Source: Solobacterium sp. (GTDB taxonomy: Bacteria; Bacillota_I; Bacilli_A; Erysipelotrichales; Erysipelotrichaceae). Taken from it: a stretch of 43,302 nucleotides of DNA. Positions 33,793 to 38,029 of this stretch are shown here, piece after piece. How positions within the stretch are numbered: position 1 is the stretch's first letter; each line of letters starts with the position of its first letter. The stretch spans positions 1 through 43,302 of the forward strand of contig JAFWEW010000027.1 in assembly GCA_017512725.1 (NCBI GenBank). Direction: 5' to 3'. The notes beneath the pieces were generated by a model. It was not told the origin of the DNA. It searched no databases and was given only the letters and a program-made list of their open reading frames with translations. Both the position numbers and the translations under genes were made by a program.

Positions 33793-34692
33793 ATGGAAAA
33801 GATTGGACTGGTACTGGACGGCGGAGGGGTCCGCGGTGCTTATACAGCCGGGGCAATGGCCTGGCTGATCGATCAGGGAATCACATTTGACTATAATGTC
33901 GGGATTTCCAGCGGTGCAGTATACATGGCAGTTTATCTGATGAAGGATAAGGAAATGCTTCATAAGATCGCCTGCAAATATGCATGTGCGGATAATGTCG
34001 TAGGCATTAAGGCACTCTTTTCGGAAGGCTATTATGTTGCGTACAAGCATTTATTTTATAACGTGCTGATCGACCAGGAACATTATTCATTTGAACGGCT
34101 GAAGGAAGAAAAGCCGGAATTTGAAATCGGCTGCTATGATCTGGAACTGGGAAAGACAATCTACTTCAATACCGAGGATCTCGATGAGGATATGGAACTG
34201 CTGCGTGCAACCTGTTCGCTTCCGGTCGCTGCACCGATCGTTGACTTCAAGGGACACCGGCTGCTTGACGGCGGTATTACCAAGATGATTCCGATTGAGC
34301 AGGCAATTGAGCGGGGGTGTACAAAGACCCTGATTGTAACGACCAAACCGAAGGATTATGTACGAGGTCCGGCGTCACCGTTTGTGAAATTCCTGATGCG
34401 CATCATTTACCGGGATTACCCGAGTGTTCTGGAAGACTACAAGGTCCGACATCTGAATTACTATGATCAGATCAGCATCATCAATGATCTGATTGAAAAG
34501 AACCGGGCGGTAATGATTTATCCGTCCAGAACCATCAAGGTAAGCCGCTGGAAGGGAGATCCGCAGAAGTGTGAGGAACTCTATGAACTTGGCTACCAGG
34601 ATATGGAGGCCAGAAAAGGCGAAATCTTTGAACTGCTGGGAAGAACACTGACCAATATTCCGGTTGCTGAAAAAGAGAAGGTTCCCGCATGA
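33793..34692 (+). CDS. Patatin-like phospholipase
   Basis: The 299-aa protein has the oxyanion loop LDGGGVRGAYTAG, the nucleophile elbow GISSG (Ser39) and the dyad Asp in LLDGGITKM (Asp159). It resembles the YjjU/RssA-type bacterial patatins, soluble or membrane-associated lipid acyl hydrolases of mostly unknown substrate. GAGGAG overlapping the end of the amidase gene is its ribosome site. With cls and the amidase it makes an envelope-related group. Confidence 0.92.
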   Translation: MEKIGLVLDGGGVRGAYTAGAMAWLIDQGITFDYNVGISSGAVYMAVYLMKDKEMLHKIACKYACADNVVGIKALFSEGYYVAYKHLFYNVLIDQEHYSFERLKEEKPEFEIGCYDLELGKTIYFNTEDLDEDMELLRATCSLPVAAPIVDFKGHRLLDGGITKMIPIEQAIERGCTKTLIVTTKPKDYVRGPASPFVKFLMRIIYRDYPSVLEDYKVRHLNYYDQISIINDLIEKNRAVMIYPSRTIKVSRWKGDPQKCEELYELGYQDMEARKGEIFELLGRTLTNIPVAEKEKVPA

Positions 34693-35504: not shown

Positions 35505-35510
35505 TTTCTG

Positions 35511-35540
35511 CAGCATCGTCCTTATACGGTGCTGTTTTTT
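35511..35540 (+). terminator. Intrinsic terminator after the HAD phosphatase gene
   Basis: CAGCATCGT and ACGGTGCTG pair (one G-T wobble) around 6 nt, followed by six T. Confidence 0.9.
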
Positions 35541-35542
35541 GT

Positions 35543-35548
35543 TATAAT
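35543..35548 (+). promoter_or_regulatory. -10 box of the ADA-like fusion gene
   Basis: Perfect TATAAT 18 nt before the ATG at 35567. The predicted leader is only about 11 nt (near GAAACAGAAATCCT) and holds no Shine-Dalgarno. Confidence 0.5.
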
Positions 35549-35566: not shown

Positions 35567-38029
35567 ATGAAACAGTTTGGCGGCTTCTATCTTGATAACG
35601 AAAAAGACATTATTGTTGATCTCTTCCTGCAGGATGAGAAGCTTTTTTATACACTTCGCACTCCGAATCACGGAACTGGAAACCTGATCCGGAATCTCGC
35701 AAAACTCTGCGACCTTCCGCTGAAGAAAGATGAGAATGAGATGCTGTATATCAGCGGACAGGTGCCGAGCTATTACGATACCTACAATCGTCTTGTGTAT
35801 GTGTTCCGGATGGGCAATACCAAGGTGGCCAATATCTATCCGGACGGAACGGTTGAAATGAAGGCGGCAATTCCGTCGATTTCCAAAACACTGATGTCAC
35901 AGACGAAACATTACGCTCTGGACATTAAACAGACGATCGTCAAGACCTTTATCAAAACAGAACTGAAGTTCCGTTCTGATCTGCATACCCATATGAATGC
36001 GAATCTGGCACCGGATATTCTGATCGCACTTGGAATATTCCATCAGATCCGCTATCCGCTTTATTATGTCCGCAAGCTGAATCTCAGGCTTACGGAATCA
36101 CAGATGAAGAAACTGGTAACGCAGCGTAAGAAGACAGAAGAACGGTTTGCGGACAGTAAGCTGAGCGGAAAGTATCTCAACCGCAAGATCGATGACAATA
36201 CGTTTATCAACTTTGCGGATCTGATCTTGGGAAATCCAAAAGACTGCGAATACAACATCGCAAAGATCCGGGTTTCACTTGCCGTGATGAAAGACGGGCA
36301 GGCGGTCTTTTCCAATCTGGAAAAAGTCTATCTTTACCGGTATGTTTTCACAAAGGGAACCGCATCCGAGGATGTTTATCCGCTGGAGCATATTGAACGC
36401 ATTCAGGACTCCGATATTATTTCTGTTCTGAAGCAGATGATAAAGGATTCCAGACATCCGGTATATAAGCATAATTCGCTTTTCCAAAACAAGCTTCTTT
36501 GGATCGCGCGTTCTTATCAGTCCTGCGGCATAACCTATGCGGAGATTTCCGATACAACACTTGTAAAAAGCGAAGGCGCTGCCCATATGCTCAAGGAAGT
36601 TCATGAAGTCATGCCGGCAATTACGAAGGAAACCGGAGTGATGATCCGTTTCCTTGCGGCAGTGCGCCGGATTCCGCTGACCATTGTCCGCGATAAGGTG
36701 ACAGCTGCAGACTACCTGAAGGAAAACCTGCAGGTGATCCGGGCAATTGCTTCCGATCCATATGTGGCCGGCAGTGATATTGTCGGCGAAGAGATCAATG
36801 ATATTCGAGAGATGAAGCCGTTTATTCATGAACTGACTGCGGTAGCTGTCGAAGTTCCGTCGTTTGTGATCCGTATCCATGCGGGCGAAAATGACAGTCT
36901 CAGGGATAACGTTGCCAATGCGATCGAATGCATCAAAAGCGGTCTGAAGGAAGGACAGGGAATGCCGCAGGTCCGGATCGGGCATGGTCTTTATACAGCC
37001 AATCTCTCCAGCAAAAAGGGAAAAAAGCTGATCCGGGATATCATTGACAATAAAGTTGTTCTGGAATTTCAGATTACTTCCAATGTCCGGCTGAATAATC
37101 TGAACTCGCTGAAGAAACACCCGCTGAAACAATACCTTTCGGAAGGGATTTACTGTGTGCAGGGAACCGACGGAGGAGCCTTGTATGGAACGAATTCCGT
37201 TGATGAACAGCTCTCCCTTGAGAAAATGCTGAATCTCAGTGAGGAAGAGATGCAGATGATGCGGAAGGAAGAGGAAGAAGTCATCCGGTCCGGAATGGAG
37301 GCGTTCGCAGCGAAAAAACGAATCTTTGCGAAAGAAGCCGGGAAGAAGGATGTTGAGGAATTCTATAACAGCAGAATTGAATCCATGCGGATGGATTATG
37401 GCGTGCTGCTGAGTTCTTCCCTCAAACATGAGTCCACTGCGGAACTGAAAAAACAGATCGTAGAATTCCCGCAGGATAAATATCCGATTATTATTGCCGG
37501 CGGCAGTTTTAACAATGACAGCCGTTCCACGAAGGTGAGAGCGTCCTGTCTGGAACTGATCGACCGTCTCTGTGAGGAGATGGATCCGTCCGAAGTCTGT
37601 TTTGTGATAGGGGACAAGCTGAACGGCTATGAGAAATACCTTGCGGAAAAATGCAAGGACCGATTTACGGTGATTGCCATCGTTCCGACGGTAATCAGTG
37701 CGTATGAGCGGAACAAACTGATTGAAAGCAGAGTCAGCGTTGTGGTGTCGATCGATCCGACCGGCATGGGATTATATAAAAGCTTTGCATATGAGATCTT
37801 CAAGCGCAGACCTTCTACACTGATCGCATTTGACGGAAACTCTGCCGGTGCGAATCTGATCCAGGAGGCGAAAAACGGAAGATACCGGGCACAGATCTTT
37901 GTCAGCAGACACAGCCGAGCGCTCGTAACGAAAGCGGATTCTCTTCATGGCTACGTTAAGGTATTCGGTGAGGAGGATGACATTCTTCCTGAGATCAAAG
38001 AAAAGATCACTCAGGATTATTCCGAGTGA
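35567..38029 (+). CDS. Adenosine-deaminase-superfamily protein with extra N-terminal and C-terminal Rossmann/SLOG-like domains
   Basis: The 820-aa protein is about twice the length of an ordinary adenosine deaminase. Residues 1-135 form an unrecognised domain. The barrel follows: DLHTHMN (His140, His142), RIHAGEND (His438, Glu441), RIGHGLY (His473), and CVQGTDGGALYG with Asp535. These match the zinc ligands and catalytic Glu/His of deaminases, but the second Asp of the usual DD pair is Gly536 and a large insert (about 150-400) is present. From about residue 640, IIIAGGSFNNDSR and SVVVSIDPTGMGLY suggest an alternating beta/alpha nucleotide-binding domain like LOG/DprA (SLOG); this is a judgement by eye. 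The substrate is unknown. It is transcribed alone after a terminator, and its 3' end overlaps the convergent ttcA-like gene by 13 nt. Confidence 0.82.
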   Translation: MKQFGGFYLDNEKDIIVDLFLQDEKLFYTLRTPNHGTGNLIRNLAKLCDLPLKKDENEMLYISGQVPSYYDTYNRLVYVFRMGNTKVANIYPDGTVEMKAAIPSISKTLMSQTKHYALDIKQTIVKTFIKTELKFRSDLHTHMNANLAPDILIALGIFHQIRYPLYYVRKLNLRLTESQMKKLVTQRKKTEERFADSKLSGKYLNRKIDDNTFINFADLILGNPKDCEYNIAKIRVSLAVMKDGQAVFSNLEKVYLYRYVFTKGTASEDVYPLEHIERIQDSDIISVLKQMIKDSRHPVYKHNSLFQNKLLWIARSYQSCGITYAEISDTTLVKSEGAAHMLKEVHEVMPAITKETGVMIRFLAAVRRIPLTIVRDKVTAADYLKENLQVIRAIASDPYVAGSDIVGEEINDIREMKPFIHELTAVAVEVPSFVIRIHAGENDSLRDNVANAIECIKSGLKEGQGMPQVRIGHGLYTANLSSKKGKKLIRDIIDNKVVLEFQITSNVRLNNLNSLKKHPLKQYLSEGIYCVQGTDGGALYGTNSVDEQLSLEKMLNLSEEEMQMMRKEEEEVIRSGMEAFAAKKRIFAKEAGKKDVEEFYNSRIESMRMDYGVLLSSSLKHESTAELKKQIVEFPQDKYPIIIAGGSFNNDSRSTKVRASCLELIDRLCEEMDPSEVCFVIGDKLNGYEKYLAEKCKDRFTVIAIVPTVISAYERNKLIESRVSVVVSIDPTGMGLYKSFAYEIFKRRPSTLIAFDGNSAGANLIQEAKNGRYRAQIFVSRHSRALVTKADSLHGYVKVFGEEDDILPEIKEKITQDYSE

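Follow-up and report, generated by a model that had tools for sequence, protein, structure and literature searches.

A single-gene protein family joining an adenosine-deaminase-type barrel to a SLOG/LSDAT-like fold in gut anaerobes

The locus

The stretch of DNA analysed (the window) comprises 43,302 nucleotides of contig JAFWEW010000027.1, from the Solobacterium sp. assembly GCA_017512725.1. At 35567..38029 on the forward strand lies a gene with an ATG start for a protein of 820 aa, in which an adenosine deaminase (ADA)-type barrel is fused to a C-terminal SLOG/LSDAT-like domain (the fusion protein). The gene was defined by its open reading frame, full-length conservation and dN/dS. The 820-residue frame was intact end to end in an alignment of 26 sequences, including about 25 relatives 50-71% identical to the window protein, and dN/dS between the window gene and a 94%-identical orthologue was 0.043; the gene is under strong purifying selection.

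In the window, a HAD hydrolase gene lies upstream and a PP-loop ATPase gene lies downstream in convergent orientation. The HAD gene is followed by an intrinsic terminator (35510..35535, forward strand; a 10-pair stem with a T tail, one found against 0.3 expected), which parts the fusion gene from the upstream operon. Because of this terminator and the convergent PP-loop gene, the fusion gene is probably monocistronic. A candidate extended -10 promoter element, TGTTATAAT (35540..35548, forward strand), was read from the sequence 18 nt ahead of the ATG; the implied leader is of about 12 nt and has no clear ribosome-binding site. Since a strict sigma-70 scan gave no -35/-10 pair, the status of TGTTATAAT as a promoter element of the fusion gene is only suggestive. 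A patatin-DUF6363 gene (window 33793-34692) is located upstream of the HAD gene, and a similar gene was found upstream of the fusion gene at two other loci (L034 and L035). In one sub-clade (L054:5646-6731 and L080:12460-13548) the fusion gene overlaps the following radical-SAM-like gene by 4 bases, and the two may be translated together there.

Domains and active site of the fusion protein

The full-length structure model had a pLDDT of 86. A beta-rich N-terminal domain, residues 1-118 (35567..35920, forward strand), was delimited by conservation and by the strands of which it mostly consists in the model. Its mean conservation was 75% per column, on a par with the barrel, and neither Pfam nor PDB sequence searches gave it a reliable family, in keeping with the earlier note made from the window sequence, which had described this domain as of no known family.

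The ADA-type TIM barrel, residues ~119-582 (35921..37312, forward strand), was recognized by Pfam A_deaminase, by a VIA fold match and from a table of aligned residues. A_deaminase was the sole Pfam match of the fusion protein (residues 339-568, E 2e-12), and the gathering cut-off of PF00962 was passed (47.2 bits against 27). In the full-length model the barrel was aligned with 2qvn over 322 residues (VIA Z 27.9, rmsd 3.5); further VIA matches were to Cad1 structures (Z ~23), secreted ADA2/ADGF (~22) and cytosine deaminase (Z 21.6), the best matches being adenosine/AMP deaminases. RdrB and ThsA were not among the fold matches listed, which has no bearing either way. The large insertion already seen in the earlier note was located at residues ~163-300 (36053..36466, forward strand), a region gapped in ordinary bacterial adenosine deaminases (Add) apart from ~234-256; Add sequences offer little or nothing to align with ~163-233 and ~257-300. 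A KDGQAVF motif (242-248) inside this region is invariant.

All 26 sequences retain the catalytic Glu and a full set of zinc ligands (HxH, H, H, D). H140/H142 (HTH), H438 and E441 (HAGE, 438-441), H473 (GHG, 472-474) and D535 are invariant, so the deaminase residues had been read correctly from the window. The same reading had the second Asp of the "usual DD pair" replaced by Gly536. The replacement was borne out (Gly in 26/26 sequences, with an [ST]DG motif kept in 80/80 named loci, the best 80 of at least 571), and Gly536 occupies the site of Asp296 in mouse ADA. The pair itself is not universal: among 15 rows of ordinary Bacillota Add, taken from related genomes, the second site is Asn in 14 (three of these rows are one ORF) and Asn or Asp in all 15. 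A second change had been missed: in 25 of the 26 fusion sequences Asn144 stands at the site of mouse Asp19, which is Asp in 15/15 of the ordinary rows. In mouse ADA, Asp19 binds the ribose hydroxyls and Asp296 is a catalytic and substrate-binding residue. Five basic residues, K334, R361, R367, R368 and R508, are invariant in the fusion family and absent from ordinary Add.

TaqCad1 carries Gly264 and Asn549 at the two ADA Asp sites; it prefers ATP, its adenosine activity is weak, and that activity was not rescued when both Asp were put back (PMC12669630). Together, Asn144, Gly536 and the added basic residues suggest a pocket that perhaps no longer fits free adenosine and might accept a substrate carrying phosphate, a lead rather than a demonstration. 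Since ordinary bacterial Add, too, often has Asn at the second site, and since the replacements are unlike those of Cad1 (Asn144/Gly536 against Gly264/Asn549), the link to a nucleotide substrate lies mostly with Asn144 and the basic residues.

The C-terminal SLOG/LSDAT domain, residues 622-820 (37430..38026, forward strand), was assigned from a structure model, Foldseek and VIA. Modelled alone, it had a pLDDT of 94. The top Foldseek matches were TRPM4 MHR1/2 (E 1e-4), DprA (5e-4), LOG-type proteins and a ShosA structure, and in VIA, ~155-190 residues were superposed, at rmsd 3.0-3.9 and Z 12-14, on TRPM2, Moco carrier protein, DprA and TRPM8. The SLOG, LOG, DprA and LSDAT Pfam profiles did not match any of the 26 members at E<=10, and Pfam and PDB sequence-profile searches returned no reliable match for the domain. 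Toprim_2, a weak match in 6/26 members (best E 0.0016), was unsupported by the fold search and was rejected. Without a sequence-profile match the assignment is by fold only, and at the level of the modelled fold it is firm; profile misses are usual for so divergent a fold as SLOG/LSDAT and are not a defining feature. The fold search thus placed the domain inside, not outside, the Rossmann/SLOG folds, confirming the SLOG/DprA/LOG resemblance pointed out in the earlier note.

Invariant residues of this domain are GGSF (645-648), E689, Y737-K738, E743, N763, Q766, N770 and K789; conservation showed no significant concentration at the expected SLOG pocket loops (21 of 169 circular shifts did as well). 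The family does not keep the LOG motif PGGxGTxxE, the loop before the invariant YK (YKS/YKG) being variable (PxGMG, ANPMG, IGAAL, RPMEL). This loss of the LOG catalytic motif makes a sensor role more likely for the domain than LOG-type catalysis, as judged from the alignment. Among SLOG/LSDAT relatives, TRPM2 binds ADP-ribose and LOG binds AMP. The SLOG domain of ThsA answers to cADPR isomers (PMC11204291, PMC10022894).

Distribution and genomic context

A scan of bacterial genome contigs gave at least 571 loci of the fusion family, the best 80 of which were kept. The hosts belong to Erysipelotrichales (Erysipelotrichaceae), Clostridia (Lachnospiraceae, Oscillospiraceae) and Coriobacteriia, mostly as rumen or gut assemblies. 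The gene was present in 7/392 genomes of a phylum sample, all from the two families of the window's order, and in 48/70 genomes of the genus. In the tree, Erysipelotrichaceae rows were scattered among Clostridia and an Actinomycetota clade lay within a Clostridia group, a placement that suggests transfer of the gene among gut anaerobes. The phage, plasmid and viral-contig collections searched yielded no copies.

The family is thus widespread. The earlier note had held that a widespread, already characterized housekeeping deaminase would undo its reading; no characterization was found in the libraries and papers searched, and the patchy occurrence, together with the tandem pair of ordinary adenosine deaminase genes that the window's genome also carries (G000:C13:92948-94964; L001, L002), argues that the fusion protein is not the housekeeping deaminase.

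The neighbour survey showed no gene recurring beyond a few loci among the best 80 of at least 571, which with the terminator and the convergent gene in the window supports the earlier view that the fusion gene is expressed alone. The Pfam families of 126 neighbours at 27 loci were mostly of metabolic and transport genes, with no defence-gene island among the families listed; of the 35 PADLOC families matched by the same neighbours, the 25 listed include no cas model. PADLOC matches to pVip and E1-E2 were discarded, as they seem to reflect nothing more specific than radical-SAM and P-type ATPase similarity.

Eight TIR_2 domains were over the cut-off in G000 (contigs C3, C11, C14, C21, C25 and C28), three of which passed the ThsB_TIR cut-off as well, and there was no SMODS match in this genome. 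Relatives had up to 45 TIR_2 domains (G015). Over the 70 genus genomes, TIR and the fusion gene co-occurred (32/39 against 16/31; raw Fisher p 0.009, odds ratio 4.3). In the same test the PP-loop gene, taken as a control, gave an odds ratio of 3.4 (p 0.058), and TIR_2 was undetected in 16 of the 48 fusion-bearing genomes. A TIR-made signal for the fusion protein was rejected, the association being hardly stronger than for the control gene; with so similar an odds ratio, the co-occurrence is not evidence.

Possible function and relation to known systems

With somewhat less than even confidence, we favour a self-contained, ligand-gated deaminase of a phosphorylated adenine nucleotide, working like Cad1 or ThsA. 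For deamination itself, as for the phosphorylated substrate, SLOG as the sensor and the physiological role, we infer the following course. The C-terminal SLOG/LSDAT domain would bind a nucleotide-type small molecule, and binding would alter the conformation or the oligomeric state of the chain. That change would switch the zinc-dependent barrel on or off, and the barrel's substrate for hydrolytic deamination would be an adenine nucleotide bearing phosphate (of the ATP, ADP or AMP class, or derived from one), not free adenosine. The fusion protein would in this way alter the purine nucleotide pool on a cellular signal. That a deaminase and a nucleotide sensor are coupled, as advanced in the earlier note, is plausible, and more so because the two ADA substrate-binding Asp are lost, as in Cad1; the substrate and the ligand are conjectural. 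More doubtful is that this single-gene, LSDAT/SLOG-controlled adenine-nucleotide deaminase gives a Cad1-like output under a non-CRISPR second messenger or stress metabolite.

It is unlikely, in our judgement, that the fusion protein is an anti-phage effector, in which a nucleotide signal of infection acts on SLOG and the barrel turns (d)ATP into (d)ITP, poisoning the pool as in RADAR or Cad1. Defence by nucleotide deamination is well established (PMC9994260, PMC11645235), SLOG domains act as receptors in Thoeris, the occurrence is patchy (48 of the 70 genus genomes) with a scattered tree suggesting transfer, and G000 has its eight TIR_2 domains. Against this, the neighbours surveyed are mostly metabolic, and the families listed for them reveal no defence island; the phage, plasmid and viral-contig collections searched held no copies; TIR_2 went undetected in a third of the gene-bearing genus genomes, and its association is about that of the PP-loop control; SMODS had no match in G000; and the sequence is very strongly conserved, unlike most defence genes. 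The possible defence role raised in the earlier note finds no support in this context (metabolic neighbours, no recurring partner, no phage or plasmid copy), and the protein is no less likely to serve in stress or metabolism.

We give no more credence to a stress or metabolic enzyme acting on something other than an adenine nucleotide (a modified nucleoside, an aminopterin-like compound or another heterocycle), with SLOG sensing a metabolite. The replacements at 144 and 536 would suit it, as would C530, Q532, G533 and Y540, which are unique to the fusion family, invariant and sequence neighbours of the active-site Asp, and so would the metabolic gene neighbourhoods. The ADA-type framework (G407, E409, E441, S505-N506 and D535) is kept, however, and the best fold matches are adenosine/AMP deaminases, though cytosine deaminase scores too.

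A bifunctional enzyme, its SLOG domain itself catalytic (a LOG-type phosphoribohydrolase or other N-glycosidase) and acting in sequence with the barrel, seems quite improbable: the fold matches of residues 622-820 include the AMP phosphoribohydrolase LOG, and E689, K738 and E743 are invariant, but the LOG motif is not conserved in the family. Dead homologues usually lose the zinc ligands and the catalytic Glu. A deaminase whose catalysis is weakened or lost, and which survives as a regulator through ligand binding or structure, is very hard to credit, as the His/Asp zinc ligands and the Glu are invariant across members down to ~50% identity, even though two substrate residues are lost and mouse ADA with Asn in place of D296 is severely impaired (cited in PMC12669630).

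The favoured reading, a ligand-gated nucleotide deaminase, was set beside known systems. No description of an ADA/deaminase-SLOG/LSDAT fusion was found in the literature, and no named family covers one. Cad1 (CAAD), the CARF-adenosine deaminase of type III CRISPR, is a deaminase that turns ATP into ITP when activated by a cyclic oligoadenylate (cA4/cA6). The fusion protein resembles it in joining a zinc ADA barrel and a Rossmann-like nucleotide-binding domain in one chain, with the same two ADA Asp positions substituted (PMC12669630). It differs in having a C-terminal SLOG fold rather than an N-terminal CARF, an extra N-terminal domain and a barrel insertion, and a CRISPR neighbourhood was not seen; an association with type III CRISPR did not appear, either as a recurring neighbour at the best 80 of at least 571 loci or as a cas model in the PADLOC families listed for neighbours of 27 loci. 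The PADLOC CARF5 (CARF_ADA) model matched with 35 bits, only in its ADA part (positions 335-560 of 605), and found no N-terminal CARF domain. Ordinary Adds score far higher on the same model (109-174 bits), so the match is non-specific and a CARF_ADA identity was rejected.

A PADLOC scan of the fusion protein at E<=1 gave CARF_ADA only and no match to RdrB, for which PADLOC 2.0.0 presumably includes a model. With RdrB of RADAR the fusion protein shares, as described in an excerpt of PMC9994260, a large ADA-type barrel with insertions, a His4-Glu centre and an HxH that comes well into the sequence (H140/H142 here, H152/H154 in RdrB). It differs in its C-terminal SLOG domain, none being mentioned for RdrB in that excerpt, and no gene for the RdrA AAA+ ATPase lies beside it in the window, nor is any neighbour shared at other loci (best 80 of at least 571). 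Ordinary bacterial Add (PF00962, TIGR01430) has the same barrel fold and zinc/Glu centre; the fusion protein departs from it by Asn144 and Gly536 in place of Asp19 and the second Asp/Asn, by insertions and by two extra domains, and falls short of the TIGR01430 equivalog cut-off (46.2 bits against 216.55). The fusion protein thus lies outside Cad1, for want of CARF and CRISPR, outside RdrB, for want of a model match and of RdrA, and outside canonical Add, by score and residues.

Like ThsA of type I Thoeris (SIR2-SLOG), it places an N-terminal enzyme before a C-terminal SLOG receptor in one chain (PMC11204291, PMC10022894), with an ADA barrel instead of SIR2 and no adjoining ThsB gene. Residues 622-820 share the fold of TRPM MHR1/2, DprA, LOG and Moco carrier protein at only ~10-16% identity, without the LOG catalytic motif and without channel or DNA-processing domains. 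If the favoured reading is true, the LSDAT/SLOG fold would gain a new ligand, purine-pool control in anaerobes would be tied to a signal, and the fusion protein would offer, beside Cad1 and RADAR, a third route to controlled adenine-nucleotide deamination, one contained in a single chain and retained across hundreds of species from gut and rumen.
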